64,000 nt of DNA, taken from the IMG/VR virus record IMGVR_UViG_3300032116_000037, positions 1 to 64,000 of that record; one strand, 5' to 3'. Origin of the DNA: a virus. The translations under genes and the position numbers were made by a program. Below, piece by piece: positions 16,451 through 39,942 of this stretch (its first letter is position 1; the number at the start of each line of letters is the position of its first letter). Under the pieces are notes generated by a model. It had not been told where the DNA came from. It was given only the letters and a program-made list of their open reading frames with translations, and ran no database searches.

Positions 16451-16455
16451 AATGT

Positions 16456-17028: not shown

Positions 17029-17033
17029 AATAA

Positions 17034-17234: not shown

Positions 17235-17436
17235 AGTGCAATCTACTCCATGCAGAATTAAGTTCTTATCACGTAAAAGAGGTAGATCTTTTCAAAAATG
17301 TAAAGTAGCATTTGTATTTTATTTTCCTCTTTTAGATAAGCCTTTTTTTAAAAGCGTTTTTAAACACTTTCCTAAAAAATTGCGTATACTCGATACTTCT
17401 CGACTTGATATAACTGAAACTTATAAATATTTATAA
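17224..17436 (+). CDS. Array small protein 40 (70 aa)
   Basis: MKIRVQSTPCRIKFLSRKRG, KVAFVFYFPLLDKPFFKSVF, end LRILDTSRLDITETYKYL. Very basic first half. Overlaps the previous gene by 11 bp. Confidence 0.55.
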   Translation: MKIRVQSTPCRIKFLSRKRGRSFQKCKVAFVFYFPLLDKPFFKSVFKHFPKKLRILDTSRLDITETYKYL

Positions 17437-17438
17437 TA

Positions 17439-17576
17439 ATGATAAAAGTTGTGTTTATGCCAAAATACAGGATTTTTGATTTAATTTGCAGTGACCAAGC
17501 ACTTTTTAATATGTGCGTGAATAAAGCAGGCTTAATACATTTTGATCTTGAGCGTCTCTTCTTTGTATATATCTAA
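17439..17576 (+). CDS. Array small protein 41 (45 aa)
   Basis: MIKVVFMPKYRIFDLICSDQ, ALFNMCVNKAGLIHFDLERL, FFVYI. Complete strand-strand-helix-strand in 45 residues. Its stop shares a base with the next ATG. Confidence 0.55.
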   Translation: MIKVVFMPKYRIFDLICSDQALFNMCVNKAGLIHFDLERLFFVYI

Positions 17577-17725
17577 TGAATATAAAAATAACATTTAACA
17601 AAATAGATAAAGCATTAAATATATTAGTCAAAAGAAACCATAAATTATATAAATCTCTTATTAATAAGAAGCGCACCATCTTTAAAAAAGGGTTATGTAT
17701 TCTTATTCATTATAAAGAAATTTAA
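17576..17725 (+). CDS. Array small protein 42 (49 aa)
   Basis: MNIKITFNKIDKALNILVKR, then KLYKSLINKKRTIFKKGLCI. Strongly basic. Function unknown. Confidence 0.55.
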   Translation: MNIKITFNKIDKALNILVKRNHKLYKSLINKKRTIFKKGLCILIHYKEI

Positions 17726-17746
17726 TTTTGAGACTTAAAAATTAAT

Positions 17747-17905
17747 ATGTTTAAAATTACAGCATATTGCTTTGAAAACGAATATTTTATATGTATTATA
17801 TCTTCACAACCTTGTCCTTTATTAGAAAAGTTAATATTAATTAATCAATACATAGGTAATATTTATATCTATGATGGAACGTGGCTAGAAGAATGTCACA
17901 TATAA
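17747..17905 (+). CDS. Array small protein 43 (52 aa)
   Basis: MFKITAYCFENEYFICIISS, QPCPLLEKLILINQYIGNIY, IYDGTWLEECHI. Good fit to the pattern, with helix LLEKLILINQYI. Confidence 0.6.
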   Translation: MFKITAYCFENEYFICIISSQPCPLLEKLILINQYIGNIYIYDGTWLEECHI

Positions 17906-17919
17906 TTCTGGGTAAAATA

Positions 17920-18105
17920 ATGACCTCAAAGTGGTATATCTTATTTAAAACAAAAGTCGAAATCAATTTTTTTATCCATATTTACATAGCTAGGAAAAAA
18001 CATTTTCTAGCTTTAGAGAAAAAACTGAATATAATTAATGTAGGCAGAGATGATATTTATCACTGTGTCTATGGAAAATTCTGGCTTGTAGATACACGAC
18101 AATGA
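17920..18105 (+). CDS. Array small protein 44 (61 aa)
   Basis: ATG 17920 preferred over an upstream GTG/ATG that would overlap the previous gene. MTSKWYILFKTKVEINFFIH, ARKKHFLALEKKLNIINVGR, DDIYHCVYGKFWLVDTRQ. Fits the pattern with a long helix. Confidence 0.6.
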   Translation: MTSKWYILFKTKVEINFFIHIYIARKKHFLALEKKLNIINVGRDDIYHCVYGKFWLVDTRQ

Positions 18106-18263
18106 TTAAAGTAATACCTTCTACTGATCTTGATTATACTATAATACTTATAGATGAAGAATTTCTATCATATTATTTAGTATTAGAGAAAATGAATAAA
18201 ATAAGTTATCTTTATCCTGGTGTTTGTATAATGACTGAATCTCTATATTTAGATAGCCTTTAG
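18102..18263 (+). CDS. Array small protein 45 (53 aa)
   Basis: ATGATTAAAGTAATA start (MIKVIPSTDLDYTIILIDEE), helix YYLVLEKMNKISY, then VCIMTESLYLDSL. Same gene start sequence as 13730 and 15130. Confidence 0.6.
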   Translation: MIKVIPSTDLDYTIILIDEEFLSYYLVLEKMNKISYLYPGVCIMTESLYLDSL

Positions 18264-18337
18264 TCTTGCTCAAAGTGAGTAGTCTAAACCATGACTCCGT
18301 ATTTTAATATGGACAAATATAATAATACGGTATTCAA
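18264..18337 (+). other. Array gap
   Basis: Only a 16-codon frame (MTPYFNMDKYNNTVFK) is open; possible remnant. Confidence 0.3.
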
Positions 18338-18499
18338 ATGATAATCCATACATGTAGTATCCTCGACAATCGTATTTTTAATAGAAAATATCTAATTTTC
18401 TGTAAAGATAGAAAATTTTATGAAGCTTTATCTGGAAAATGTTATCTTATTATTAAAAAATATTCGTTCAAAAATTTCGCAATAATTTTACAATCTTAA
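18338..18499 (+). CDS. Array small protein 46 (53 aa)
   Basis: MIIHTCSILDNRIFNRKYLI, FCKDRKFYEALSGKCYLIIK, KYSFKNFAIILQS. Followed by 60 bp that read CYIGDKIRIIDLYYR to a stop, perhaps the end of a lost member. Confidence 0.55.
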   Translation: MIIHTCSILDNRIFNRKYLIFCKDRKFYEALSGKCYLIIKKYSFKNFAIILQS

Positions 18500-18561
18500 A
18501 AAAATAAAGATTGCTATATTGGTGATAAAATTAGAATCATTGATTTATATTATAGATAATA

Positions 18562-18729
18562 ATGTATATTACATATAGACAAGAATATCTTAGAAGACGT
18601 ATAGAAATATATGTTAGTGTAGATTTTATTACAAAAAAAAGTTTTCATATAAATGAATATAATATGTTATGGGAAAAATATCACACTATTCTACAATCGC
18701 CGGACAATGCGACATTAATCATAAGATGA
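18562..18729 (+). CDS. Array small protein 47 (55 aa)
   Basis: MYITYRQEYLRRRIEIYVSV, DFITKKSFHINEYNMLWEKY, HTILQSPDNATLIIR. ATGA overlap with the next gene. Confidence 0.55.
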   Translation: MYITYRQEYLRRRIEIYVSVDFITKKSFHINEYNMLWEKYHTILQSPDNATLIIR

Positions 18730-24940: not shown

Positions 24941-25036
24941 ATGACTTTACAAGATATATTCATATATAGTTCAATTCAACAAAGGATAATTAATGATAGT
25001 ATTGTATGCATATACTGGTTTGCAAATTCCATATGA
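24941..25036 (+). CDS. Leader-like mini-ORF upstream of prs (31 aa)
   Basis: MTLQDIFIYSSIQQRIINDS runs into the prs start. Its sequence contains the prs ribosome binding site (AAAGGATAATTA). A second mini-ORF starting MTLQDVFYIS stands in the same place before the AAA+ gene at 31031, so the first five residues are conserved. It may be a translational-coupling leader. Confidence 0.45.
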   Translation: MTLQDIFIYSSIQQRIINDSIVCIYWFANSI

Positions 25037-25859
25037 AATCTTAAACTTTCCAGACGGTGAAACTTTTGTAAAGTTGGCCGTATCAAAAGATGATAAGATA
25101 TCTATACTATGGAAGTATGAGAACGACGGCGAATTATTTACTCTCGGTTTGTTAGCTGATGTTATCAAAAATAACAAAGCTTCATTAGAGAAAATCATAA
25201 TTCCTTATTTTCCTCATGCTAGACAAGATAGGGCGACCGCACCTAATCAACCGTTCTCTCTGAAAGTTTTCATGGAGATTCTAAAGAGTATTATTGGTAA
25301 AGATTCTACGCAAATATATACTCTTGATATTCATTCCAATACGCCATTCGATTTAATAAATCATGGTAGTCTAACAAATATAAGTTCATCAATACTAACC
25401 ACTAATTTTAGTTTTAGTAATATAGATTGTTTAATTTGTCCAGATAAAGGGGCAAGGAGTAGAGTAGAGGAATGGGCGTTAATGTTAAATTTGCCAATTT
25501 TATATTGCGAAAAAACCCGCGACCCGTCAACTGGCAAATTGAGTAATCCTACTGTAGTTAATAAAAGTAATCTTAAAGAAGATTGGAAATACTTATTAGT
25601 TGATGATATTGGTACAGGATTTGGAACTCATATAGGATTAGCAAAAAGTATCAAAAGTTTAACAAACGTTTCTATTGAAATTGTTGTTTCTCATGCTGGA
25701 TTCTCTAATGGAATAGAGCCAGTATTAGAGGTCTTTGACAAAATTTATACAACAGATAGTTTAATTAAGGGATATAATAAAATAAAAGATTCAGAAAGTT
25801 TCAATAGCCGTATATTTGTAATGCCAGTAGAAAAAGTTTTTAATTTGCCTACCGTATAA
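24993..25859 (+). CDS. prs: Ribose-phosphate pyrophosphokinase (PRPP synthetase, 288 aa)
   Basis: The enzyme makes PRPP from ribose 5-phosphate and ATP. Motifs: PDGETFVK (20-27, ribose-phosphate side), PYFPHARQDR (71-80, ATP and metal site), DIHS (112-115) and the PRPP loop LLVDDIGTG (201-209). It is slightly shorter than bacterial Prs (about 315). It sits directly before nadV, whose enzyme uses PRPP, so the two form an NAD-precursor pathway; PRPP also feeds nucleotide synthesis. ATG 24993 has AAAGGA seven bases upstream. Confidence 0.93.
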   Translation: MIVLYAYTGLQIPYEILNFPDGETFVKLAVSKDDKISILWKYENDGELFTLGLLADVIKNNKASLEKIIIPYFPHARQDRATAPNQPFSLKVFMEILKSIIGKDSTQIYTLDIHSNTPFDLINHGSLTNISSSILTTNFSFSNIDCLICPDKGARSRVEEWALMLNLPILYCEKTRDPSTGKLSNPTVVNKSNLKEDWKYLLVDDIGTGFGTHIGLAKSIKSLTNVSIEIVVSHAGFSNGIEPVLEVFDKIYTTDSLIKGYNKIKDSESFNSRIFVMPVEKVFNLPTV

Positions 25860-25871
25860 AGGAAAATATAA

Positions 25872-27335
25872 ATGAAAGTTTTACCAATTCTATTGTCTGA
25901 TAGTTATAAACAATTTCATTGGATGATGTACCCAAAAGGGATTACTAAACTTTATAGTAATATGACCCCAAGGAATTTTAAGCACTTAAAAACTGATAAG
26001 GCTGTTTTTTTTGGATTACAGTATTATGTCAAAGAATATCTAATGAAGCAGTGGAATGAAAACTTTTTTAATCAACCAAAAGAAAAGGTATTACAAGAGT
26101 TTAAGCGATTCCATAAATATTTTAGCAACTATGATATGTCAACAGAACATATTGAAAAGTTGCATGATTTAGGTTATCTACCAATTTCCATTAAAGCTCT
26201 ACCAGAAGGCAGTCTTGTTAAAGAAAAGATTCCTTTCTTTACTATAACAAATACCCATCCTGATTTTGCCTGGTTAGTTAATTTCCTTGAAACTCAAATG
26301 AGTACTAGTATTTGGGATTGCTGTGTAGTTGCTACAATAGCATATGAATATAAAAAGATATTAAATAAATGGGCAGACCTTACTTGTGATGATAGAAGTT
26401 TTGTACAATGGCAGGGTCATGATTTTTCTCAAAGAGGAAGAAGTAGCCAAGAAAGTACATTAAATCAGGCTGGGCATCTTTTAAGTTTTACTGGCACTGA
26501 TACTATTCCTAGCGTATTAATGCTAGAAGAATATTATAATGCCAACATGGAAAATGAATTAATTGCCAGTAGCGTGCCAGCAACTGAACATTCAGTTATG
26601 ACAAGTTATGGTAAAGAAAATGAAATCAATGCATTCGAAAGAATTTTAGAACAATTCCCTACTGGGATAGTTTCTGTCGTAAGTGATAGTTTTGATTTGT
26701 GGGCAGTGTGTACTGACTTTTGCGTTAAGCTTAAAGATAAGATATTGAATAGAGATGGAAAGTTAGTTATCCGCCCTGATAGTGGAGATCCTGTTGATAT
26801 TGTTTGTGGTTTAAATACTACAGATAAAGCACATCAATTAGATCATCCTTCATCTAAAGGCGTTGTTGAACTTCTTTGGAATGTTTTCGGTGGAAAAATT
26901 AATAGCAAGGGTTATAAAGAATTAGACCCCCATATTGGTGTTATCTATGGTGATAGTATCAGCAGAGAAAGAGCAGAAGAAATTTGCAAGCGATTAGAAC
27001 AAAAAGGTTTTGCAAGTAACAATATAGTTTTTGGTATAGGAAGCTATACTTATAACTATAATACTAGAGATAGTCTTGGGATAGCTGTTAAGAGCACTTA
27101 TTGTGAAGTAGACGGAATCCCTAGAGAAATCTTTAAGGACCCTGTCACCGATGATGGAATCAAAAAGAGCGCAAAGGGTTTGCTTAAAGTTAATAAAGAC
27201 AATGGAGAATATTCTTTACAAGATATGGTTTCTCCAGAAGATGAAAAAGGAGGATTCTTAGATACAGTATTCCTGGATGGAAAATTGTTAATAGACCATC
27301 GTCTAGGAGATATTAGGTCAAGGTTACAATCATAA
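25872..27335 (+). CDS. nadV: Nicotinamide phosphoribosyltransferase (487 aa)
   Basis: NAMPT/NadV family enzyme joining nicotinamide and PRPP to nicotinamide mononucleotide. Diagnostic stretches: FGLQYYVKEYL (46-56), GRSSQESTLNQAGHLLSFTG (about 196-215) leading to TDT, SVPATEHSVMTSYG (about 238-251), VVSDSFDLW, and VIRPDSGDPVDIV (about 300-312), the PRPP-binding region. Full length for the family (about 460-490). It lies 12 bp after prs. Phage NadV with Prs restores NAD pools, including after host defences consume NAD; the NMN adenylyltransferase that would finish NAD is not in this window. Confidence 0.95.
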   Translation: MKVLPILLSDSYKQFHWMMYPKGITKLYSNMTPRNFKHLKTDKAVFFGLQYYVKEYLMKQWNENFFNQPKEKVLQEFKRFHKYFSNYDMSTEHIEKLHDLGYLPISIKALPEGSLVKEKIPFFTITNTHPDFAWLVNFLETQMSTSIWDCCVVATIAYEYKKILNKWADLTCDDRSFVQWQGHDFSQRGRSSQESTLNQAGHLLSFTGTDTIPSVLMLEEYYNANMENELIASSVPATEHSVMTSYGKENEINAFERILEQFPTGIVSVVSDSFDLWAVCTDFCVKLKDKILNRDGKLVIRPDSGDPVDIVCGLNTTDKAHQLDHPSSKGVVELLWNVFGGKINSKGYKELDPHIGVIYGDSISRERAEEICKRLEQKGFASNNIVFGIGSYTYNYNTRDSLGIAVKSTYCEVDGIPREIFKDPVTDDGIKKSAKGLLKVNKDNGEYSLQDMVSPEDEKGGFLDTVFLDGKLLIDHRLGDIRSRLQS

Positions 27336-27862: not shown

Positions 27863-28238
27863 AAATATAGCCTCTGTTAATATTAATAAACATCCTTTAT
27901 TTTATGATAGTGGAAGAAAATTGCATTTTTCTTTTATCATAGCTGATGGAGGTATTATTGAATGGGGTTGTAATATGTCTCACGTACCACCAATCCATAT
28001 GGGATATTCTCAAAGGATTGGGGGGAATGAGCCAAAACTACATAGTGAACTTGTGGCTTATAATAAATCGAAAGGTTTACTTAAAAATAATTTTGATATA
28101 ATTAATGTCAGATTTAATAGAGCGGGCCAGCTTAGAATAAGCATGCCCTGTTCTGTATGTTATTCAATCTTAAAAGGATTGGGTTGTAAAGTTTTTTTCT
28201 TCTCAAATGAAGATGGTACTTATGGAAAAATTAGATAA
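27831..28238 (+). CDS. Cytidine-deaminase-fold protein (135 aa)
   Basis: KLHSELVAYNK (about 69-79) and MPCSVCYSILKGLGC (about 105-119) are the H-[AS]-E and P-C-x-x-C zinc and catalytic motifs of the cytidine/deoxycytidylate/tRNA deaminase superfamily. The Glu acts as proton shuttle and His plus two Cys hold zinc. The length fits single-domain phage deaminases. The substrate (CMP, dCMP, cytidine or a nucleic acid) cannot be told. Overlaps its neighbours. Confidence 0.8.
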   Translation: MKTKKLITHCENIASVNINKHPLFYDSGRKLHFSFIIADGGIIEWGCNMSHVPPIHMGYSQRIGGNEPKLHSELVAYNKSKGLLKNNFDIINVRFNRAGQLRISMPCSVCYSILKGLGCKVFFFSNEDGTYGKIR

Positions 28239-29370
28239 ATTTATTAGAAGATTGTGTTTTGAAGAAAGTTTCTTCTCAGCACTTTCAATTCACATTGATA
28301 AGCGATTTATCAAAGATGATAAAATTACAGCTTATGTGGCAGTAAAGAAAGACTCTGATATAGAGTTAGTAATTAACGAAAATTTTTGGGATACCTTAAC
28401 TGAAGACCAAAAATATGGTATTATCAAACATGAGTTGTATCACATCTCTTTTTTCCATTTATTTAAAATGATGGAAAATAAGGCCCTGGATAATATAGCT
28501 AAGGATATTGTTGTTAATCAATATATTCCAGCTAATATGCTTCCTCCCGGTGCGGCTACTATAGAGCAATTTGCTCATCTTAATTTACTACCTCTACAAG
28601 ATTTCATGACTTATTATAATATTCTGATGCAAAATCAGGATGATAAGAAAGTTAAGCAATATACTGATGCTTATAATGAAATGGGGGGCGGTGATTTAAG
28701 AGAGTGCCAAGATGGTGATGAAGGTGAGCAGTCTGATGCTAAAAAGTATGGAGAAGCTCAACTAAAGAATAACATGAAGAAAATCTTCAATGATGTTCTT
28801 AAACGCAATCGTGGAAAAATTCCTGCCGGTCTTGAATCTATAATGGATTATGTTAATACTGCTGTTGTAGATGAATTGAATTGGAAAGAAAAGTTAAAGT
28901 ATTTTGCTTCTGCTGCACGCAGAGTGAAAATTCATTTAACACGAAATAAGCTAAATAAACGTCTAGGAATGGATTATCCTGGTACAAATATTAAGCGTAA
29001 AACAAAAGTGTTAGTTGCCATAGATACGTCTGGCTCAGTAGCTGACGAAGAATTAATGAAATTTATGGAACAAGTATACTTAATGAGCAAAACAGACTGC
29101 GAAATAACAATCGTAGAATGTGATGCTAAAATGTATGAGCCTTGGTTATTTAATAAAAAACGTAAAATTAAGTTTAAAGGACGAGGTGGAACTTCTTTTG
29201 ACCCTGTATTAGAATATTTTAACAAAGAACCTTATAATGGCCTAATCTATTTCACAGATGGTTATTGTAGCACTAGCATTTCTACAAATAAGAAAATTTT
29301 GTGGGTTGTGACTAGTGGTGGAACAATGGAATTTCAAGCTCCCGGCAATAAAGTACAGATTAAGAATTAA
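28207..29370 (+). CDS. Metallopeptidase-like (DUF2201-type) plus VWA domain protein, copy 1 (387 aa)
   Basis: The N-terminal part contains KHELYHISFFH (about 74-84), the HExxH zinc motif of the DUF2201-type putative metallopeptidase domain. The C-terminal part is a VWA-like domain with the metal site AIDTSGSVADEE (about 271-282) and IYFTDG. A charged linker (ECQDGDEGEQSDAKKYGEAQ) separates them. Such proteins work with MoxR-type AAA+ ATPases, one of which follows 25 bp later. A second copy lies at 35108. ATG 28207 overlaps the previous gene; ATG 28222 is possible. Confidence 0.85.
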   Translation: MKMVLMEKLDKFIRRLCFEESFFSALSIHIDKRFIKDDKITAYVAVKKDSDIELVINENFWDTLTEDQKYGIIKHELYHISFFHLFKMMENKALDNIAKDIVVNQYIPANMLPPGAATIEQFAHLNLLPLQDFMTYYNILMQNQDDKKVKQYTDAYNEMGGGDLRECQDGDEGEQSDAKKYGEAQLKNNMKKIFNDVLKRNRGKIPAGLESIMDYVNTAVVDELNWKEKLKYFASAARRVKIHLTRNKLNKRLGMDYPGTNIKRKTKVLVAIDTSGSVADEELMKFMEQVYLMSKTDCEITIVECDAKMYEPWLFNKKRKIKFKGRGGTSFDPVLEYFNKEPYNGLIYFTDGYCSTSISTNKKILWVVTSGGTMEFQAPGNKVQIKN

Positions 29371-29395
29371 GTTTTTTAAAAAAAGGATAATAATT

Positions 29396-30538
29396 ATGAG
29401 TTCTTCGAAAGATATCCAAAATACTTTGACTTACGTTTTCAATAATAATAAGGAGTTGGCAAAAAAGAATCGCCCACCAGTAGCACTAGAAATTATCGGT
29501 CCTGCTGGTATTGGTAAGACTAGCGTGATTATTGATTTTTGCAAGTATAACTCTCTTGATTATGCTAAGATTAACTTAGCTCAAATGGATGAGTTGGCAG
29601 AACTTATTGGTTGGCAAGTTCGTGAATTCAAGACTGTTGATGGTGAATGGATTAACGAAAAGCAAACTGAAAATAATAAAGTTAAGTTGACTAACGAAAC
29701 TCGTACTTCTTGGTGTCCTCCTAAATGGGTTCCTACTGATACTAAGGGTGGCGTACTAATTCTTGACGACTGGAATCGTGCTGACCCACGATTTACTCAA
29801 GCTGTTATGGAGTTGATTGACCGTGGAGAATATGTTTCTTGGAAAATGCCACAGAATTGGACTATTGTATTAACGAGTAATCCTGATAATGGTGATTACT
29901 CTGTTAATACTGTTGACCCTGCTCAACGCACTCGTTATTTGACTGTCGAAATGTCTTTCAACCACAAAGAATGGGCTACTTGGGCTGAATTTAATAATAT
30001 TGATTCGCGTTGTATCAATTTCGTATTGATGAATCCAGAAATCATTAATAATAAGAAGGTAAATCCTCGTGCAGCTACAAAGTTCTTCGATGTGATTTCT
30101 TCTATTAAAGACTTTTCTGATAATTTAGATTTCATTTCTACTATTGGTCATGGATTAGGTGAAGAATTTACTACCTGTTTCATTTTGGCAGTTCAAAACC
30201 GCCAAGATAAAATCATTGATATCTCTGATATCTTTGCACTGGATTTCCCATCTGTAAAGAATCAAATGAATGATTGTACTGGTTTTGGTAGTAAGAAGTA
30301 TAAGAGCAGTGTTGGTGCAACTATTATTACTCGTATGGTGAACTACCTTGCAAAACTTAATGTTGAAGGTAAGATTACTAAGAGTCATTATAATCGTTTG
30401 CGTGAATTTTGTGACACCGCTCTACTTCCAAAGGAAAATTATTCTTATCTTTTGAAGGAAATTGCAACCATTGATAATCCAATCACTGATGCAATTTATA
30501 AGTCTAACGACACGGTCTTTACTCAATATATTCACTAA
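29396..30538 (+). CDS. MoxR-type AAA+ ATPase, partner of copy 1 (380 aa)
   Basis: Walker A GPAGIGKT (35-42), Walker B GGVLILDDWNRA (119-130) and the sensor-like TSNPDNGDY. AAAGGATAATAATT is the ribosome binding site for ATG 29396; upstream starts in the previous gene are rejected. It resembles MoxR/CbbQ-type ATPases that remodel or load VWA partners. A paralogue at 36527 is alike throughout (CPPKWVP, IDSRCINFVL in both). GC at codon third positions is raised, so the gene may be well expressed. Confidence 0.88.
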   Translation: MSSSKDIQNTLTYVFNNNKELAKKNRPPVALEIIGPAGIGKTSVIIDFCKYNSLDYAKINLAQMDELAELIGWQVREFKTVDGEWINEKQTENNKVKLTNETRTSWCPPKWVPTDTKGGVLILDDWNRADPRFTQAVMELIDRGEYVSWKMPQNWTIVLTSNPDNGDYSVNTVDPAQRTRYLTVEMSFNHKEWATWAEFNNIDSRCINFVLMNPEIINNKKVNPRAATKFFDVISSIKDFSDNLDFISTIGHGLGEEFTTCFILAVQNRQDKIIDISDIFALDFPSVKNQMNDCTGFGSKKYKSSVGATIITRMVNYLAKLNVEGKITKSHYNRLREFCDTALLPKENYSYLLKEIATIDNPITDAIYKSNDTVFTQYIH

Positions 30539-30598
30539 TTTTTGAATTTAATTTTATTTTTTTTATTTTTTTTATTTTTTGCTACGAGGATAATATAT
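30539..30598 (+). other. T-rich spacer
   Basis: Almost pure T/A (poly-T blocks) between the AAA+ gene and the 30599 gene, ending in the ribosome-binding bases ACGAGGATAA. Confidence 0.5.
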
Positions 30599-30949
30599 AT
30601 GTCTACTTCTACTATTCATGATTTGCGGCGTGCTGGTTACAAAGTTCATGTTGACCATTACCGATATTTTATCGAAGATGTAACTTGTGATTATATCTTT
30701 ACTGATAAAATCAGGAAGCGTACTAAGACCCATAAGATTCCAGTGCTAAAGAAATATAGTATGTCAACTATTACGAAAGATCGTAAGAAAGATGTGTTCG
30801 CACGCGGAGGTGAAACTGTTGTAACTATTACAACTAATGCTGGTACTTTTAGTAGCAATGTTCATTGTTCAATTGATGATAATTATAATAAAAAGGAAGG
30901 TGCAAGTCAAGCTCTAACCAAGCTTCTCGCTGCCATAAAGTTATCATAA
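30599..30949 (+). CDS. Hypothetical protein of the MoxR/VWA module (116 aa)
   Basis: ATG 30599 (MSTSTIHDLRRAGYKVHVDH) with GAGGATAATA upstream; a TTG in the T-rich spacer is rejected. Basic middle (KIRKRTKTHKIPVLKKY), then a polar glycine/threonine-rich beta part (ARGGETVVTITTNAGTF). It lies between two AAA+ genes. Function unknown. Confidence 0.65.
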   Translation: MSTSTIHDLRRAGYKVHVDHYRYFIEDVTCDYIFTDKIRKRTKTHKIPVLKKYSMSTITKDRKKDVFARGGETVVTITTNAGTFSSNVHCSIDDNYNKKEGASQALTKLLAAIKLS

Positions 30950-30950
30950 C

Positions 30951-31034
30951 ATGACTCTACAAGACGTTTTTTATATCTCCGCCCTTATTACTTTATGCAT
31001 CAATATTTTATTCAATAAAAAGGATTATCAATGA
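30951..31034 (+). CDS. Leader-like mini-ORF upstream of an AAA+ gene (27 aa)
   Basis: MTLQDVFYISALITLCINIL then FNKKDYQ. It ends by overlapping the next ATG (ATGA) and holds that gene's ribosome site (AAAAGGATTATCA). The first residues equal those of the mini-ORF before prs at 24941. Confidence 0.5.
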   Translation: MTLQDVFYISALITLCINILFNKKDYQ

Positions 31035-31894
31035 GTATTTTTAAACCAGAGCTAAACAAAACATATTTTGTTAACAAAGATATTACCAGTCTATTTACTT
31101 ATGTTGAAAATCAGCGTAAGACTAAGACCCAAAAAGTTTTACTTAAAGGACCTCATGGTGCTGGTAAAACTGAAATGGCGATGCATTATGCTGCTGTAAA
31201 TAAGCTACCAATGCTAATTATGGATTGTGCTAATTTGCGTGAGCCAAGAGATTGGTTTGGATATAAGAAGATTGAGAAGTCTAAGATTGTTTGGCATGAA
31301 AGTCAATTTGATAAGACTTTAGGCGAAGGTAATGTTGTTGTATTATTGGATGAGATTAATCGTGTACATCCAAGTATTCTGAATACTCTACTCCCATTGC
31401 TAGATAATCGTGGATTCACGTATCTAGAAGAAAAAGGTTCTAATATTGTTGTTGGACCTGGAGTTGTATTTTTTGCTACTATGAATGAAGGGGCTGTTTA
31501 TACTGGCACTACTTCTATTGACGTTGCTTTAAAAGATAGATTTCCTCGTATTATCGAAGTAAAATATCTGGAAGCTGACAAGGAAGTAGAATTGTTAGTT
31601 AAACGCACTGGTATAGAGCAAGATGATGCCACAAGTCTAGTACATATTGCTAACCAAATTAGAGAAAAAAGCTCTGGTATTTCTTCATCTTTTTCTAATA
31701 CTATGTCTACTCGTCAACTATTAGCTGCGGCTGAAGATTTTGTTGATGGTGGAGTTGATAGTTTAACATTTACTATTACTAATTTGTTCTCACCAGAAGG
31801 TGGAACATCTAGCGAACGAGCCTCTGTATTACAATTAATACAAGGTAAGTTTGGTGGAGTGCGTTCTAAGGCTAAGTCTCGTCTAAGTAAGTGA
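31031..31894 (+). CDS. MoxR/CbbQ-type AAA+ ATPase (287 aa)
   Basis: Walker A GPHGAGKT (40-47), Walker B VVVLLDEINR (102-111) and sensor 1 FFATMNEG with a D-RF arginine finger region (ALKDRFPRI). It is closer to NorQ/CbbQ-type ATPases than to the 29396 and 36527 pair. The CobT-like VWA gene follows 4 bp later, the usual partner of this class; together they probably form an ATP-driven chaperone or metal-insertion-like machine. Confidence 0.88.
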   Translation: MSIFKPELNKTYFVNKDITSLFTYVENQRKTKTQKVLLKGPHGAGKTEMAMHYAAVNKLPMLIMDCANLREPRDWFGYKKIEKSKIVWHESQFDKTLGEGNVVVLLDEINRVHPSILNTLLPLLDNRGFTYLEEKGSNIVVGPGVVFFATMNEGAVYTGTTSIDVALKDRFPRIIEVKYLEADKEVELLVKRTGIEQDDATSLVHIANQIREKSSGISSSFSNTMSTRQLLAAAEDFVDGGVDSLTFTITNLFSPEGGTSSERASVLQLIQGKFGGVRSKAKSRLSK

Positions 31895-31898
31895 AAAA

Positions 31899-33689
31899 AT
31901 GTCTAAGAATTATAAAAAAAAGTGGTGGTACGATAAGTACGACTTTGATGATGAATTTTATAAGAAAGAACAAAAAAAAGATGATGATTTTAGCTCATCT
32001 TCTTGGTGGAAAACATCTTATAAGAATCCAACCAAAAGTTGGATGTCTAAATTAGGTGGCTACACTTATTCTTTTGGAGAATCTTCTGATGAGAAGTATC
32101 ATAAAGTATTAAAACAATTACAAACATCAATTAATATTATTAATAATAATGATATTGTTGTAAAATGGAGTGATAATACTAACAAAAATAAACATGATGA
32201 TAATATTGTTTATTTGTCGCCTAATAATTTATTAAAAGGTGGAGAAATAGATGATAATGAAATTGATGTTCTTACTGGAGAAGTTTATTTATCTAGAATG
32301 ATTAAAGAGCAATCTAATAAAGACTATGATGCAAAAAAAACTGTGTCTGAGTCAGCTTTATGGAAAGCTCTTGAGATAAATATCGCTAAAACTAATCTTG
32401 AAAAAGATTGGCCTGGTTTTATTCCTAATGTTTTGAAAAATTTAGATAATAAAAACTGTGATAAAACAAAAGTTGAAAATGTTTTAAATGCAGAAACAGT
32501 ATCTATAGAAGCTATAACATCAGGTTTAAGCTGGAATTTAGTTAATCCTCATGATATGGTAGAAATACCAGAAAAATATAATGCTTGTTTAGATGCGGCG
32601 TCAGAAATATTAGCGGATGATAAAGTCGAGTATAATAGATTAGACGCTTGTAAACAAATTATAAAAAAGATTAAAGAAATTCTTGGTGTAGATGAAGATT
32701 TTGAAAAAGATTTACCTGCCCCAAAATTAGAAAGATTGTTTGGTGAAGAAAGAATATCTAATACTATTGGAGAAGGATTAAAAAATCAATCTGCTGAATC
32801 TAAAACGGATGATTTAGGTTCGCCAAAAGTTGAAGGAACTTTGGCTAAACAAGAATTATATGCTCATTTTACTTTAATGAAAAATAGAAGAATAGGCATA
32901 TATGAAAAACAGGCTAGAGAATTAACAAATCAAATTAATCATATCAAAAATAATTTGATGTTTATGGATAATAAAATGCACAATCATTCTTTTGGGCATT
33001 TATCTGGAGATATAGATGAAAATTCTCTTTTTAAAATTAAATTAAAAGATGAAAGATTAATGTCTAGACCAGATATTTTATCTAGAAAGCAGAATGCATT
33101 TTGCTTTTTATTAGATGAAAGTGGTTCAATGGGTTGTGATAATAGAATTAGTGAAGCGCGAAAAGTATTAATTACATTAACAGAGGCGTTAAAAGATAAA
33201 TTTAATATTTCTGTTTATGGGCATACTGCAGAAGGTAACGCTCCTGATGGACGTTTTATTCGCGGCACTATAATTAATGAATATTATTCTCCAAGAAATT
33301 CTGATTATAAAAGTATAATTGAAGCAAAAGCAAGACACCAAAATTTTGATGGTATGGCCATTAAACAATGTGGAAAAAGGCTTTTGCAAGATTATCCAGA
33401 ATCTAGAAAAATCTTATTCCATATAGCAGATGGTAAACCATATACTAACTATATGTATGGAGAAAAAGCAGAACAATATGTAAAAGAAGTATCTGATGAA
33501 TTAAAAAAGAAAGGTGTTGAAGTTTATTGTATAGGTATTTGTAACGCCTTCCATCGAACAGAAGGTGAAAAAATGTACGGAAAAGATCGTTTCGTTATAA
33601 TAAACGATGTCGCTTCATCCGTAGGTATTTTATCAAGATTTATTCAACAAATTTGCAACAAGAGTATAGCCGCTTATGTACAAAGTTAA
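31899..33689 (+). CDS. CobT/NorD-like VWA domain protein (596 aa)
   Basis: A long acidic and lysine-rich N-terminal part ends in a C-terminal VWA domain (about 395-596). The MIDAS motif is LLDESGSMG (about 402-410), followed by ISVYGHTAEG and LFHIADGKPYTN. The N-terminus is full of aromatic and charged repeats (KKWWYDKYDFDDEF, SSSWWKTSYK). CobT-type proteins couple MoxR/CbbQ ATPases to their targets. It overlaps the next gene by 14 bp. Confidence 0.83.
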   Translation: MSKNYKKKWWYDKYDFDDEFYKKEQKKDDDFSSSSWWKTSYKNPTKSWMSKLGGYTYSFGESSDEKYHKVLKQLQTSINIINNNDIVVKWSDNTNKNKHDDNIVYLSPNNLLKGGEIDDNEIDVLTGEVYLSRMIKEQSNKDYDAKKTVSESALWKALEINIAKTNLEKDWPGFIPNVLKNLDNKNCDKTKVENVLNAETVSIEAITSGLSWNLVNPHDMVEIPEKYNACLDAASEILADDKVEYNRLDACKQIIKKIKEILGVDEDFEKDLPAPKLERLFGEERISNTIGEGLKNQSAESKTDDLGSPKVEGTLAKQELYAHFTLMKNRRIGIYEKQARELTNQINHIKNNLMFMDNKMHNHSFGHLSGDIDENSLFKIKLKDERLMSRPDILSRKQNAFCFLLDESGSMGCDNRISEARKVLITLTEALKDKFNISVYGHTAEGNAPDGRFIRGTIINEYYSPRNSDYKSIIEAKARHQNFDGMAIKQCGKRLLQDYPESRKILFHIADGKPYTNYMYGEKAEQYVKEVSDELKKKGVEVYCIGICNAFHRTEGEKMYGKDRFVIINDVASSVGILSRFIQQICNKSIAAYVQS

Positions 33690-33951
33690 AATATTAAATC
33701 CTTTAAAATTTAAAAAGATAATTAATAAAGCGATTTTAATATCTAAAACTTTAGACGAAGTAAGATTCTTTTATAAGAATGAATTTTATTTAAGCGTCTT
33801 ACCAGATGGTTATATTCTAGATGTAAAAGATAAAACTTTTTCGATATCTAAAAATTTAGATTATTATATTGCTTACAATGGTTCTAAAGAAGATTTTCAA
33901 CATTTCATTAACATAGTGAGAAAAGAATATGCACCCAGAAAATTGGCCTAA
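33676..33951 (+). CDS. Hypothetical protein of the MoxR/VWA module (91 aa)
   Basis: MYKVKILNPLKFKKIINKAI, strands VRFFYKNEFYLSVLPDGYIL, and a DFQHFINIVRKEY helix. The start overlaps the VWA gene and the end overlaps the following gene, so it is likely co-translated with the module. Function unknown. Confidence 0.65.
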   Translation: MYKVKILNPLKFKKIINKAILISKTLDEVRFFYKNEFYLSVLPDGYILDVKDKTFSISKNLDYYIAYNGSKEDFQHFINIVRKEYAPRKLA

Positions 33952-34312
33952 CTCGATTAAGGAAAGCGAATATTTTTGCATTTCTGATTTAAGTTCTGAA
34001 GTTTCAACTCCAGTAGACCAAGCGCATGTAATGGATTTATTCAAGTATGTTGGATATCCATTTAAGTTTGAAGGATTTTATGCTGGTAGTATGATTTTGG
34101 CCTCTGATAAGAAAGGTCCTCTTCCAATTAAGCTAAAGTATATTGAACGAGTGACAAAAATTTCTAATGAAGAAGTTGAAAAATTCTTTAACTGCATGAA
34201 TTCTGCTCAGGATGATACTGTTGATAAGTTGAAAGGCTTATTTTCAAAGATGGTTAATCCTCAAGAACCTCCAAAAGAAGAAGGAAGCGAAGATGATACT
34301 ATACAAGGATAG
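33929..34312 (+). CDS. Hypothetical protein of the MoxR/VWA module (127 aa)
   Basis: MHPENWPNSIKESEYFCISD, ending in an acidic and proline-rich tail (VNPQEPPKEEGSEDDTIQ). The middle (VSTPVDQAHVMDLFKYVGYP) looks structured. No family recognised. Confidence 0.65.
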   Translation: MHPENWPNSIKESEYFCISDLSSEVSTPVDQAHVMDLFKYVGYPFKFEGFYAGSMILASDKKGPLPIKLKYIERVTKISNEEVEKFFNCMNSAQDDTVDKLKGLFSKMVNPQEPPKEEGSEDDTIQG

Positions 34313-35108
34313 ATTGTTCTTTACAATTCCTCCAAAAGAATCTGAAATTGGTTTGACTTCTAATCATTTCTATTTTGTGAAAGGTACTGTTGGATGCCGC
34401 GAAACCCATAAGCATTTATATAGCAAATATATGATTAAAGAAGTAGAAAATATTATAAATGCAGATATGATTGTTATGGAGTGGCCATCATTTAAGTCTC
34501 ATCATATAGATGTTAAAACAGATGATTTTAAAATGATTGAAAAATTCTATGCTATAGAACATAGCAAATTATATTTTCATGAAGTAGAAAAAATTTGGAA
34601 AGAATTTTTTGATAAACCAAAAATAAGTATAAATACTTTTTTATCTTATTTTTTATCTGACAGAGAAGAATTGACTAAAGATACTTTTTTAGATTTGTAT
34701 AATAAATGTTTACGCTGTTCTACTCCTGAATCACTAAATGTTTTATTATCTAAAATTGTAAATATAGATATTAAATATAAACATTTAATAGGCTGTCTTA
34801 ATTTTGCTATTGATAGTTCTTCTTGTGGAAGATATGGGGCGTCAGGTAATACTTTCTTTAGAAAGAGCGCTCACTCAAATATAAGGAGACTTTCTCCATG
34901 GCATTTGTTTAACGCCTATCATAATGAAGAATTCGCTCAAGAAGAAAACAATATCATTGAACAAATTTTAAATAATGATAAAGATTTCTTTCTAGAGGAA
35001 CTAGAGCTTAAAAAGAGATATCCGCATTTAGAATTGAGTATTTCTAAAAAGAAAAAAATGGAAGTGGAACAACCAATAGCCGCTTCTACTTCATGGGGTG
35101 ATTTTTAA
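34293..35108 (+). CDS. Module accessory protein 1 (271 aa)
   Basis: No known domain. It is helical in the middle (TFLSYFLSDREELTKDTFLD) and ends with basic and acidic segments and the short motif STSWGDF. The protein at 37698 has a similar size, a similar helical segment after a first half rich in aromatic residues, and a comparable end (TETNKWDL). They appear to be diverged accessory proteins, one for each metallopeptidase-VWA copy. Overlaps the next gene by one base. Confidence 0.6.
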   Translation: MILYKDRLFFTIPPKESEIGLTSNHFYFVKGTVGCRETHKHLYSKYMIKEVENIINADMIVMEWPSFKSHHIDVKTDDFKMIEKFYAIEHSKLYFHEVEKIWKEFFDKPKISINTFLSYFLSDREELTKDTFLDLYNKCLRCSTPESLNVLLSKIVNIDIKYKHLIGCLNFAIDSSSCGRYGASGNTFFRKSAHSNIRRLSPWHLFNAYHNEEFAQEENNIIEQILNNDKDFFLEELELKKRYPHLELSISKKKKMEVEQPIAASTSWGDF

Positions 35109-36295
35109 TGAGTTATAATGTCTATGATGCCATCAAAGATTTGATGTTATTAGACCCATTTTATGGCAATCTATCCATTCAGTTAGATAAATATATGACT
35201 GAATCTGTAGATACTGCCTGCGTGTCCTTGAAAAAGGATAAGATGAATATTGATTTATTAGTAAGCCCAAAATATTGGGATAAACTTAGTAATAATTTAC
35301 GTCTTGGTCTAATTAAGCATGAAATGCTTCATGTGGCATTCTTTCATCTATTTCTTGTACCTGGATATGAAGATAAAAAATTATTCAATATTGCTGCTGA
35401 TTTGTGCGTGAACCAATATATTGACGCAAATCAAGTAGGTGATAACTGGATTACTTTTAAGTCTTTTCCAGACATATCTTTTAAACCAAAAGAAAGCACA
35501 GATTATTATTATAATGTTTTAGAACAAAATAAAAATAATCCAACTGTAAAATCTTTATTAGACCATTTAAATGCTGGAAAACCAGCAGTATGTTCTCATA
35601 AAGGTTGGGAAGGTATTCAAGATGTACCAGAAGAAATGAGAGAATTGGCCAAAAAACAACTTGAGTATCAGATGAAAGATATTTTTGATAATATCTTAAA
35701 TAAAAATAGAGGTTTATTACCCGGTCATTTGGCTGGTTTGATAGACAGTTTTGGAAAAATTCAGCCTCCTATATTAGATTGGAAGCAAGCTATACGTAGA
35801 TTTGCTACTGGTTCTAATAAAATTAAGTTTAAGTTAAACAAAAACAAACTTAATAAAAGATATGAAGGTTGTGATTTTCCTGGCTCTATTATTAAAAGAA
35901 AGCGAAAATTACTTGTTGCAATAGATACTTCTGGTTCAGTTTCAGGAGAAGAATTAAAGCAATTCTTAACACAAATACATCATATTTGGCGAACTGATAC
36001 TGAAATCGATATTATCCAATGCGATGCTAAAATCCAGAATATTGCTAAGTATACTGGTAAAACAGTAGATTTTAAAATATTTGGAAGAGGTGGTACTGCT
36101 TTTGACCCTCCAGTGCAATATTTAAATGAAAATAACTACAATGGTTTAATTTATTTTACTGATGGAGCAGGTAGCTGCAGTGTCAAAACATTAAAACCAA
36201 TTCTATGGGTTATATCTGGAAGAAATCCATCTCATTATGGAGTATCTCAGTATATAGACCAATTACCCGGAAAGAAAGTGTTTATAGAGAAATAA
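35108..36295 (+). CDS. Metallopeptidase-like plus VWA domain protein, copy 2 (395 aa)
   Basis: Paralogue of the 28207 protein: KHEMLHVAFFH (about 70-80, HExxH), a linker, then the VWA-like domain with AIDTSGSVSGEE (about 271-282) and IYFTDGAG. The two copies share whole blocks (FGRGGTAFDP / KGRGGTSFDP, NGLIYFTDG). Its AAA+ partner copy follows at 36527. Duplication of the pair suggests different substrates or hetero-complexes. Confidence 0.85.
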   Translation: MSYNVYDAIKDLMLLDPFYGNLSIQLDKYMTESVDTACVSLKKDKMNIDLLVSPKYWDKLSNNLRLGLIKHEMLHVAFFHLFLVPGYEDKKLFNIAADLCVNQYIDANQVGDNWITFKSFPDISFKPKESTDYYYNVLEQNKNNPTVKSLLDHLNAGKPAVCSHKGWEGIQDVPEEMRELAKKQLEYQMKDIFDNILNKNRGLLPGHLAGLIDSFGKIQPPILDWKQAIRRFATGSNKIKFKLNKNKLNKRYEGCDFPGSIIKRKRKLLVAIDTSGSVSGEELKQFLTQIHHIWRTDTEIDIIQCDAKIQNIAKYTGKTVDFKIFGRGGTAFDPPVQYLNENNYNGLIYFTDGAGSCSVKTLKPILWVISGRNPSHYGVSQYIDQLPGKKVFIEK

Positions 36296-36296
36296 T

Positions 36297-36521
36297 ATGG
36301 ATTTTAGAAAACATGTTGACGAACAGTTAGAGAAAAACAGACATAAAAAGAAAATAACCTCTGTTCATGAAGGTTATGGTCTTTTGATAGAAGAAGTAGA
36401 TGAGTTTTTTGATGAAGTAAAAAAGAAAACATCTGTAAGATTTAGAGAAGATGTTGTAAAAGAACTCGCTCAAATAGCAGCAATGTGTGAACGTATCTAT
36501 AATGATTTGTATAAAGGGTAA
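36297..36521 (+). CDS. MazG-like nucleotide pyrophosphohydrolase domain protein (74 aa)
   Basis: HEGYGLLIEEVDEFFDEVKK (about 24-43) followed by VVKELAQIAAMCERIYNDL (about 53-71). The EExxE pair with a downstream E-L-A-x-I-A-A-M helix is the arrangement of short phage MazG/dUTPase-like all-alpha NTP pyrophosphohydrolases. Only four helices fit in 74 residues, so it would work as a dimer or tetramer. One base after the previous gene. Confidence 0.65.
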   Translation: MDFRKHVDEQLEKNRHKKKITSVHEGYGLLIEEVDEFFDEVKKKTSVRFREDVVKELAQIAAMCERIYNDLYKG

Positions 36522-36526
36522 TAAAT

Positions 36527-37693
36527 ATGCATAAAGTATCTGTCTCTTATAAGCCGTCTGAAGTCCGGAGCTTGCTCCAACATATTGTTAATAATAATCA
36601 ATACTTGGTTGAAAATGATTTACAACCATTAGCTATTGAAATTGTTGGTGAGCCTGGAATTGGTAAGACAACTCTAGTAATAGATGAGGCAAAAAGATTA
36701 GGTTTAGATTATTATAAACTATCTATGTCTCAAACAGATGAATTATCTGATTTAGTTGGTTTTCCTATTCGTGAGTTTAAAACAAATACTGGAGAATGGA
36801 TTAGTGAAAAACAGCTAAATTCTTCTCACGAATTAAGTGGTGAAGCTCGCACAGCATGGTGTCCACCTAAGTGGGTTCCAAATGATGAAAATAGTAAAGG
36901 AGTATTGATTCTAGACGATTGGACTCGTGCTGATTCTAGATTTGCTCAAGCCACAATGGAATTAATTGAGAAATCAGAATATATGAGCTGGAAATTGCCA
37001 AAGGGCTGGAGTATTGTATTAACAAGCAATCCAGATAATGGTGATTATGCTGTTAATAGCCTAGATACTGCGCAAAAAACACGCTATCTCTCTATCAATA
37101 TGAAATATGATAAGGATGATTGGGCGGAGTGGGCGGAAGCAAATAGTATTGACTCTCGTTGTATTAACTTTGTGCTTCTTAATCCTGAAGTTCTAGATGT
37201 AAATAAGAATTTGAACGCAAGAATTGTAACTAAATTTTTCAATTCAATTTCATCTATTAGTTCTTTTAAGGGAAATCTTAGACTTATTAGAACTCTTGGA
37301 GAAGCCTCTGTTGGTTCAGATTTTGTTGAAAGATTCTTAGTCTTTATTAATAATGAGCAAGATAGAATTCCATCTCCTCATGAAATACTAACTCATGATA
37401 ATGAAGAATATATTATTGGTAAAATTAAGCAGGTATCAGGAGATAGAGAAGACACTTCTTATAAAGCTGCGGTTGCCGGGACTATTGCTGCAAGATTAGT
37501 TAATTATATTAAATATTCAGTTACTGAACCTAAAAAGTTCAAGAAAAAGGCTTTTACTGAACGTATTAAGAATATAATGTTAGCTAAATTATTCCATGAT
37601 GATACTAATTATTATCTAACAGCATCATTTTCTGTAATTCCTCAATTTGAAGCGTTCTTGCAAGATCCTCATATTAAGCAATTTATTAGGTAA
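36527..37693 (+). CDS. MoxR-type AAA+ ATPase, partner of copy 2 (388 aa)
   Basis: Walker A GEPGIGKTT (about 42-50), Walker B KGVLILDDWTRA (about 126-137), TSNPDNGDYAVN. Clear paralogue of the 29396 ATPase (shared AWCPPKWVP, IDSRCINFVLLNPEVL). Together with 35108 it repeats the gene order of the first copy. Confidence 0.88.
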   Translation: MHKVSVSYKPSEVRSLLQHIVNNNQYLVENDLQPLAIEIVGEPGIGKTTLVIDEAKRLGLDYYKLSMSQTDELSDLVGFPIREFKTNTGEWISEKQLNSSHELSGEARTAWCPPKWVPNDENSKGVLILDDWTRADSRFAQATMELIEKSEYMSWKLPKGWSIVLTSNPDNGDYAVNSLDTAQKTRYLSINMKYDKDDWAEWAEANSIDSRCINFVLLNPEVLDVNKNLNARIVTKFFNSISSISSFKGNLRLIRTLGEASVGSDFVERFLVFINNEQDRIPSPHEILTHDNEEYIIGKIKQVSGDREDTSYKAAVAGTIAARLVNYIKYSVTEPKKFKKKAFTERIKNIMLAKLFHDDTNYYLTASFSVIPQFEAFLQDPHIKQFIR

Positions 37694-37697
37694 TAAA

Positions 37698-38504
37698 ATG
37701 GACTATAAAAATCATTTTATAATTATACCAAATGAAAAAGCAAGATTAGCCCTCAGATGGTATGGAAGTAGTTCACAAACAGAGTCATCACGCTATGGTA
37801 CGCCTTTGATAGAACAAGAATTAAATGACGCTTTAACAGAAGTATCCAAGAGAAAAATTGATATTACAAATAAAACAATTTTTTTCTTAAATGGTATTGA
37901 AATAAAGCAAGAATTATATAAAAAAAATTATAATCTTAAAACTACTAAAGACCCCGAAAAAGCTGATTATATTGTCTTTGGTCAAAGACATATTCATAAA
38001 AATTATTGGGGATATGGATATTACCATATAAATAAAAATATTATTGATATATGTAAAAAATATCATGATAAGTTTTTAGATTATAGAAACATTATGGCTG
38101 CGGCAACTAAACAACAAACTTTAACTCATGAAAATGCGTTAAAACTTTTTAGAATGTCGTGTGCTGAAGATGATGTAAATGCTAAATTATTAAAAACATT
38201 AGTAATTGATATAGATTATAATGAATATCCTCTTCTTATGTCAATTTTATTAAGGAAAATAAGAACTAGAACGAGTGATGGAATATTTTTAAATTATTAC
38301 AATCAATTTAGAGCAAGTAGTGCCTATATAAATTTAGGTAATGTATATTCTAACCATATTGATTTAAAATGGATAATTGATAATGTTGGTGCAAAAGATT
38401 TAGAATTGGTTATTGGCTTATTTAATGAGCAAATACCAGACTTTCAATTAGTCAGAAAGAATCCAGCACCGGCTTTGACTGAAACTAATAAATGGGATTT
38501 ATGA
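37698..38504 (+). CDS. Module accessory protein 2 (268 aa)
   Basis: Start MDYKNHFIIIPNEKARLALR at 37698; an upstream start lies within the AAA+ gene. First half mixed alpha/beta with DPEKADYIVFGQRHIHKNYW, second half helical. Ends in TETNKWDL. Likely counterpart of the 34293 protein. Function unknown. Confidence 0.6.
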   Translation: MDYKNHFIIIPNEKARLALRWYGSSSQTESSRYGTPLIEQELNDALTEVSKRKIDITNKTIFFLNGIEIKQELYKKNYNLKTTKDPEKADYIVFGQRHIHKNYWGYGYYHINKNIIDICKKYHDKFLDYRNIMAAATKQQTLTHENALKLFRMSCAEDDVNAKLLKTLVIDIDYNEYPLLMSILLRKIRTRTSDGIFLNYYNQFRASSAYINLGNVYSNHIDLKWIIDNVGAKDLELVIGLFNEQIPDFQLVRKNPAPALTETNKWDL

Positions 38505-38863
38505 TATATATAGTAAATCATTCTATTAAAAAAGGCACTGAAATTATTTTAAAAAATAAATTACATTATTCTAAGAAAATTTCAGGTATATATGAAGATT
38601 TAACTAAAAATAAAGTAGACTCTAGGTATATTTATATTGCTTATGATGGAGATATACCTATCGGTTGTGCTTTATCTAGTACTAATGCGACAGCAATGGT
38701 TTTCATATCGCCTAAATATAGGCGTAAAGGTTTAGGTACTTTATTAATTACAAAATTATGCGAAGAAAACAAAAAAAATTATTTTCTTTCTGTAGACAAA
38801 ACCAGTTCAAAAAGTAAAAAACATTTTTGGGATTATGTTAAAAATAAGATATATAAATGTTGA
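38501..38863 (+). CDS. GNAT-family N-acetyltransferase (120 aa)
   Basis: IPIGCALSSTNATAMVFISP (strands 3-4) leads into KYRRKGLGTLLITKLCEEN (about 72-90), the R/Q-x-x-G-x-G/A acetyl-CoA pyrophosphate-binding loop of GNAT enzymes. It is shorter than usual (about 140-160) but keeps the core. ATGA overlap with the previous gene. The acceptor substrate is unknown. Confidence 0.75.
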   Translation: MIYIVNHSIKKGTEIILKNKLHYSKKISGIYEDLTKNKVDSRYIYIAYDGDIPIGCALSSTNATAMVFISPKYRRKGLGTLLITKLCEENKKNYFLSVDKTSSKSKKHFWDYVKNKIYKC

Positions 38864-39107
38864 ATGTGATAAATGTGGCGAAGTTATTTTACCTTATAAT
38901 AAAATTATAGAATGTCGATGTGGACAAAAAATTAAATATACTTATAAAGTAGAAAAAAGCCCAATGGATTTAGCATTTTCAACACTAATATCTTTAGGTT
39001 ATTCTAACAATGAAATTAGAAATGCGATACATAACTCATACTTTTTGACACCTCAAGATATGATTGAGCATGTAAAAAAATATGTTAATAGGACAAAACA
39101 AGGTTAA
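38835..39107 (+). CDS. Zinc-ribbon protein with RuvA domain-III-like tail (90 aa)
   Basis: VECDKCGEVILPYNKI and ECRCGQKIKY provide two CxxC/CxC knuckles (about residues 11-31). The tail SPMDLAFSTLISLGYSNNEI (about 43-62) followed by RNAI has the spacing of RuvA domain III and UBA-like three-helix folds (A-x-x-x-L-x-x-LGY-x-x-x-E). RuvA domain III is the part that binds RuvB. The next gene is RuvB-like and overlaps it, so a role as its DNA-targeting adaptor is inferred. Confidence 0.55.
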   Translation: MLKIRYINVECDKCGEVILPYNKIIECRCGQKIKYTYKVEKSPMDLAFSTLISLGYSNNEIRNAIHNSYFLTPQDMIEHVKKYVNRTKQG

Positions 39108-39942
39108 AAAACAAATAGAGTTAATAACTCAAAATGAATTTAAACCGACTTTAATATGCGGGCCGAGCGGTTATGGTAAAACCACGTTCGCCAGCTATAT
39201 TTCAGAATCATTAAATCAAGATATTACGGTGATAAATTGCGCAACAAAAACAAACAAGCAGGATATTATCAAAGATATCCTTAGAGTGTCAAAATATTCT
39301 TGTGTATTATTAGATGAGATTCATTCATTACCTAATTCTTACCAGGAAATAGTTTATTCTTTTTTGGATAAGCAGCAAATAAATTTTAATAAATTAAAAT
39401 TGGACGTTTCAACTATTAATTTTATAGGAGCGACAACCGATGAAGGCTCTTTACTAGAGCCTCTCTTAAATAGATTTGTTTATAAACTTAGATTAGATAA
39501 TTATACTGATGATGATTTAGGTCATATTATTTATAATTATTTACAGCAAGCATATAATAAAGACGATTGTTTTGCTTTAGGTAAAACAGCTAGAGGTTGC
39601 CCACGTGTTGCAATAGCCAGAGCTAATGCTTTTAAAATCAGTAAAAGTTTAAGTAATTTTTTTGAATATTGGGATGTTTCTCCAGAAGGTTTTGAAAAGC
39701 CAGATTATCAATATTTAGAATTATTGCGAGACAATTATCCAAAACCAGTCTCTCTTAAAACAATAGAACAAAAATTAAAAATGTCTTCTGATTCTGTAGT
39801 TAATAATATTGAATCTTTTTTGATTCATAAAGACTTAATTATAAAATCTTCTAAGGGTAGAGAGCTGACTAGAAAAGGGTTGGATTTTATGAATATTGAT
39901 AATATTGATAAATTTCTACAAAACGATTTAAGCTGGTTATAA
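39082..39942 (+). CDS. RuvB-like Holliday-junction branch-migration ATPase (286 aa)
   Basis: IGQNKVKKQIEL (3-14) matches the RuvB start. Walker A GPSGYGKT (27-34), Walker B VLLDEIH (75-81), sensor 1 FIGATTDEGSLLEPLLNRF (114-132) and ARGCPRVAIARAN (about 169-181) all follow RuvB. The C-terminal winged helix (NYPKPVSLKTIEQKLKMSSD to LIIKSSKGRELTRKGLDF) is present. Bacterial RuvB is about 330-350 residues. It would drive branch migration during phage recombination or replication restart, or clamp-loader-like remodelling. A strong terminator follows. Confidence 0.75.
   Translation: MLIGQNKVKKQIELITQNEFKPTLICGPSGYGKTTFASYISESLNQDITVINCATKTNKQDIIKDILRVSKYSCVLLDEIHSLPNSYQEIVYSFLDKQQINFNKLKLDVSTINFIGATTDEGSLLEPLLNRFVYKLRLDNYTDDDLGHIIYNYLQQAYNKDDCFALGKTARGCPRVAIARANAFKISKSLSNFFEYWDVSPEGFEKPDYQYLELLRDNYPKPVSLKTIEQKLKMSSDSVVNNIESFLIHKDLIIKSSKGRELTRKGLDFMNIDNIDKFLQNDLSWL

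Follow-up and report, generated by a model that had tools for sequence, protein, structure and literature searches.

Gene content of the locus

The window, that is, the whole stretch of DNA that was analysed, comprises positions 1-64000 of a virus record 128,386 bases long (IMG/VR IMGVR_UViG_3300032116_000037). All eight ORFs that a first-pass annotation had named between 28207 and 38504 could be found there on the plus strand, and its description of two metallopeptidase-VWA proteins, each with an AAA+ ATPase, and of a MoxR/CbbQ-type ATPase and a CobT-like VWA protein between them agrees with the ORFs and with the Pfam and PHROG searches. Judged from sequence, the record holds three neighbouring MoxR/VWA pairs of predicted remodelling function, two of them protease-fused duplicates. 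The three pairs lie within 10 kb; as a rough guide only, three randomly placed anchors span at most 8.4 kb in about 1% of placements. The genes are listed below, c0 being a third-component family defined in this analysis.

28207-29370, plus strand: VWA1, N-terminal HExxH metallopeptidase domain (DUF2201_N) and C-terminal VWA domain (DUF2201); PHROG 1314, N4 gp25 family
29396-30538, plus strand: AAA1, MoxR-like AAA+ ATPase; PHROG 1297, N4 gp24 family
31031-31894, plus strand: CobS-like protein, MoxR/CbbQ-type AAA+ ATPase; PHROG 249
31899-33689, plus strand: CobT-like protein with C-terminal VWA domain and DESGSM MIDAS
34293-35108, plus strand: accA, probable diverged c0 protein, directly upstream of VWA2 with a 1-base overlap
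35108-36295, plus strand: VWA2, second metallopeptidase-VWA protein
36297-36521, plus strand: 74-aa ORF between VWA2 and AAA2, with phrog_25385 (unknown function) as its sole match and none in Pfam
36527-37693, plus strand: AAA2, second MoxR-like AAA+ ATPase
37698-38504, plus strand: accB, diverged member of the c0 family
38835-39942, plus strand: 90-aa ORF and RuvB homologue (RuvB 39082-39942), overlapping genes and neighbours in the same gene run

From the CobS-like gene (31031) to the end of the RuvB homologue (39942), any gap between adjacent genes that do not overlap is no longer than five bases, so that the genes make up one gene run. The RuvB homologue (RuvB_C 8e-18, RuvB_N 1e-16) lies directly downstream of the genes of the module, and the 90-aa ORF before it gave a weak RuvA_C match (5e-4) below the cut-off.

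The two metallopeptidase-VWA proteins scored 39.9 and 46.5 bits against DUF2201_N (cut-off 23.2) and 54.4 and 59.3 bits against DUF2201 (cut-off 26.4). AAA_5 is passed by all three ATPases, by AAA1 with 25.1 and by AAA2 only just with 22.3 bits (cut-off 22), while the AAA_3 (MoxR) cut-off of 27 bits is reached by none of them (AAA1 15.4, AAA2 17.7, CobS-like protein 22.6). The PHROG scan of the cluster returned phrog_1314, phrog_1297 and phrog_249. Neither copy has lost the HExxHxxxxH motif, the MIDAS residues or Walker A/B (in VWA1, HELYHISFFH and DTSGS/GRGGT/TDG), and each consists, as in the phage pairs, of an HExxH- and MIDAS-bearing VWA protein beside an AAA+ protein with Walker A/B. Residues H71, E72, H75, H80, D273, S275, S277, T330 and D352 are invariant across 39 aligned homologues. 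The AF2 model of VWA2 (mean pLDDT 86) recovered the VWA fold in the PDB, with NorQD among the weaker matches, and no significant match to a solved structure was found for the metallopeptidase-VWA family. In single-sequence scans, neither VWA1 nor the CobT-like protein had a close relative. Protease-VWA proteins in public records commonly carry the label 'HNH endonuclease' (e.g., NC_008720 gp25, PHROG 1314), apparently by transfer from PHROG 1314; this label was rejected on the strength of the Pfam results, in which the proteins hit DUF2201_N/DUF2201 but none of the HNH families.

Elsewhere in the window, the region 10079-18669 contains no ORF of at least 90 aa and instead about 40 packed ORFs of 50-75 aa, mostly on the plus strand, some of which form at least one small family of paralogues (12066, 14061, 14292, 15130). 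Positions 1-9400 have a GC content of 39-55%, against 25-34% elsewhere, and include a perfect 87-nt tandem duplication (1-174) and an inverted repeat with 386-nt arms of 84% (312-697/1275-1660); this region is possibly foreign or mis-joined. Genes for PRPP synthetase and nicotinamide phosphoribosyltransferase, a phage NAD+ salvage set, stand side by side at 24993-27335.

Duplication of the pair and the c0 family

The metallopeptidase-VWA/AAA pair corresponds to the gp24/gp25 module of coliphage N4, found in 302 cultured-phage records by its VWA protein and in 82 by its ATPase. It was matched in more than 550 viral stretches, and in about 150 loci its two genes lay side by side or close together. 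A MoxR and metallopeptidase-vWA pair has been described in jumbo phages, with a proposed role in virion assembly (PMC7824862), and no experimental test of the function of an N4 gp24/gp25-type pair was found in the literature searched. The pairs of this virus share with N4 gp24/gp25 and its homologues (PHROG 1297/1314) a homologous two-protein architecture with genes adjacent or nearly so. They differ in that N4-type pairs are single-copy and divergent (about 25% identity), and that N4, AR9, PEV2 and MTATph1, the four searched for these genes, have neither a c0 partner nor a CobT-like gene.

The duplication is the unusual part of this locus, the pair itself being already known as a phage module. 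The 302 cultured-phage records matching the VWA protein contained 302 matching places, one copy each, and when 39 other virus records were searched over their full length, exactly one VWA match was seen in 34 and none in five, compared with two in this record. VWA1 and VWA2 are 41.6% identical (BLAST E 3e-92) and AAA1 and AAA2 45.9% (E 4e-111), far beyond chance, and the duplication noted in the first-pass annotation is real. In maximum-likelihood trees both gene pairs are sisters (AAA 100/99, VWA 97/96), which makes it probable, as the simplest reading of the sequences, that the two-gene unit was duplicated once within this lineage, with copy 1 changing faster thereafter (branch lengths of copy 1 vs copy 2, 1.27 vs 0.78 and 0.89 vs 0.62). 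Independent inheritance of the two sets, which had been named as an observation that would speak against the module, is disfavoured by this sister placement, although the VWA AU test is less decisive: a position of copy 2 outside the phage clade was rejected (p 0.034), whereas the same position of copy 1 was not (p 0.081).

In the relatives L016, L052, L059 and L178 the AAA ATPase gene appears to be in two pieces with other sequence between them, suggesting insertions in this gene. VWA relatives at L180-L193, L197, L202 and L203 come from contigs that binning assigned to Saprospiraceae, Chitinophagales and further bacteria (including the isolate Cocleimonas flava), and these loci are mostly devoid of detectable c0 and have large neighbouring genes.

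The c0 family comprises 269 ORFs, some of them short forms of its C-terminal half, with a median length of about 350 aa, and is fast-diverging and multi-copy. In the subgroup to which the pairs of the window belong, c0 ORFs adjoin the pair in most loci, for example in the orders VAcc, VAc, cVAcc and AcV. Of the whole records tested, all 15 that carry this subgroup contain c0, as does this record, compared with 0/11 of those with only a CobST or N4/AR9-type pair. Searches against PHROG, PADLOC, NCBIfam and Pfam gave no significant match for c0. The profile comparisons (hmmsearch E 8e-11, hhalign probability 91%, whole-genome profile search E 4e-6) identify accB as a diverged c0 member. The accA protein, probably another, is collinear with the c0 profile at a non-significant level (hhalign E about 0.04, probability about 1%); it showed no significant BLASTP similarity to accB, and the Smith-Waterman score of the two was reached in 1/500 shuffles. 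Both accessory proteins reported by the first-pass annotation (34293, 37698) do exist, but they do not occupy similar places in the two sets: accA directly precedes VWA2 and accB directly follows AAA2, so that both flank copy 2, and by this position they were rejected as counterparts that would each serve one copy. The common set c0-VWA-AAA-c0 is retained in copy 2 (the membership of accA being only probable), and copy 1, which has no c0 neighbour and is evolving faster, has therefore probably become specialised.

The c0 fold was predicted with confidence (pLDDT 90, pTM 0.85) and had no whole-fold match in the PDB. Weak BRCT-like signals, each individually insignificant, recur at c0 residues 50-130 in four comparisons, among which Pfam BRCT was found in 2/52 members (best E only 0.04), PDB profile matches of the N-terminal half were weak (E 0.03-0.4), and Foldseek paired c0 with a viral BRCT domain at a probability of 0.87 but an E of 0.4. 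These signals are suggestive of a BRCT-like domain in the N-terminal half but do not establish one. Travelling with the common version of the module, c0 may steer the machine to its targets.

Genomic setting and proposed place of action

The gene context was surveyed in 77 relative loci with at least 15 kb of sequence, which are related and partly derived from the same contig, so that they are not independent counts. In 47/77 loci the module is surrounded by replication/recombination genes (primase, Sak4, RusA, nuclease, polymerase or DnaB). The setting is nevertheless split, since 17/77 loci have it 3-7 kb from genes for the terminase large subunit or portal, and 13/77 have neither a replication/recombination nor a terminase/portal context. 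The annotation of Pseudomonas phage PEV2 records early transcription around its gp24/gp25 homologues, and in AR9 an annotated early promoter precedes the pair. In the present virus the gene run goes on into the RuvB homologue, which fits a DNA-related setting, and the module is tens of kb away from a minus-strand block with the longest ORFs, in which no structural gene was identified by profile.

These settings point to action on phage DNA-protein complexes, during replication, recombination or packaging, as the likeliest role. The main rival is virion assembly or maturation, in which a chaperone-cochaperone pair would assemble virion parts, the peptidase would process structural proteins and the duplicate would serve a second structure. 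Such a role was proposed for group 2.2 jumbo phages by analogy to tail assembly in the Acidianus two-tailed virus (PMC7824862), and the loci close to terminase and portal genes accord with it. Set against the predominance of replication/recombination blocks, the early transcription noted in PEV2, the early promoter in AR9, and the distance from the long-ORF block of this virus, we regard virion assembly as less likely, while still a serious competitor.

The CobST-like pair and the proposed mechanism

The middle ATPase matches AAA_5, CbbQ_C and bpMoxR in Pfam (bpMoxR 32.7 against a cut-off of 27), and the CobT-like protein matches VWA and CobT_C, with the CobT VWA domain PF11775 at 27.6 vs 21 bits. 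The profile of the latter also matched solved CobT (9uka, E 4.6e-14), and NorD as well. The CobS equivalog model TIGR01650 was far from reached (28.4 vs 558.6 bits). Nine viral CobS-like relatives are 46-74% identical, and in 9/9 the CobT-like gene directly follows CobS; the subfamily is rare, with 11 loci found. Pairs of cobST genes are known in tailed viruses (PMC8651126), and the present pair resembles them in having adjacent CobS-type AAA+ and CobT-type VWA genes without CobN, while differing in its rare CobS subfamily and in being enclosed by two protease-VWA/AAA pairs. L162 and L163, relatives by CobST, carry a more distant protease-VWA/AAA pair of a different subfamily 2-6 kb away, and such a pair occurs somewhere in 5/10 CobST records, this record included. 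Since the pair co-occurs in these records and lies nearby in L162 and L163, the two kinds of remodeller perhaps cooperate, although at these small numbers the data give only hints that CobST-type and protease-type remodellers work together.

It has been proposed for viral cobST that the pair is a metabolic helper (PMC8651126); applied here, the CobST-like proteins would join the CobN of the host and so boost the production of cobalamin, and the flanking pairs would be unrelated to them. The match to CobT_C above its cut-off and that to solved CobT are consistent with this. CobN is not encoded in this virus or in ten further CobST viruses (0/11), which rules out a self-sufficient cobaltochelatase, though a host could still provide CobN. 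The virus also encodes NrdA/NrdB-type ribonucleotide reductase genes, and reductases of this family are not known to need B12. Together with the low CobS equivalog score and the VWA/AAA pairs that lie near CobST in L162 and L163 as well, these observations make a cobalamin helper improbable.

Lower still, and in our view very improbable, stands a conflict system, i.e., a MoxR-VWA three-part defence or anti-host cluster such as superinfection exclusion with the proteases as effectors, to which the first-pass annotation had linked such ternary sets and with which the existence of such systems in bacteria (PMC7159879), the bpMoxR match of the CobS-like protein and the fast divergence and multiple copies of c0 would agree, whereas PADLOC gave only weak generic AAA matches, no VMAP, beta-propeller, FtsH, iSTAND or effector was found in the cluster by Pfam or PADLOC, and many phages, N4 among them, commonly have the pair in a single copy. 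The logic of MoxR, VWA and third component, sometimes with peptidases, is shared with those systems, but c0 matches none of their third components known to Pfam or PADLOC, and its distribution is that of an ordinary phage gene.

We tentatively suggest, with somewhat less than even confidence, that the locus is a lineage-specific duplicated MoxR and metallopeptidase-VWA module around CobST, forming ATP-driven remodelling and clipping machines that work in the vicinity of phage DNA, c0 serving as their adaptor. As the first-pass annotation had put forward, the sets may make up two parallel machines or a single hetero-oligomer, the sequence being compatible with both. With NorQ/NorD and CobS/CobT the module shares a MoxR-class ring and a VWA partner with a MIDAS, and it differs from them in that no client for metal insertion is known in this virus. 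In NorQD, a finger of the VWA protein reaches into the pore of the ATPase, and the partner is twisted as ATP is consumed (PMC13036017). By analogy with NorQD and CobST, each AAA+ protein would assemble into a hexameric ring, take hold of its VWA partner and, driven by ATP, pull on this partner or on a bound client. The fused HExxH domain of the duplicated pairs, which has retained its active-site residues in both copies, could then clip or open the client, and the c0 proteins (accB and probably accA) might act as adaptors selecting clients, perhaps via the BRCT-like domain. The CobST pair would be a protease-free sister remodeller rather than a self-sufficient cobaltochelatase.

While the base module was already known, the duplication, the combination with CobST and an undescribed third gene in the subgroup are new here. 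The third gene family in a large subgroup, the setting split between DNA replication and packaging, and one duplicated machine provide testable routes to function. Our results also raise the bolder and rather unlikely possibility that phages carry an undescribed three-part machine, composed of a MoxR ring, a VWA partner fused to a metalloprotease, and rapidly diverging c0 adaptors of BRCT-like type, which would be an ATP-driven protease stripping or clipping proteins on phage DNA, functionally like eukaryotic SPRTN/Wss1-Cdc48, and which in this virus would be duplicated and combined with a CobST-type remodeller. If true, such a DNA-associated remodelling protease would be a phage counterpart of the eukaryotic replication-coupled proteases.
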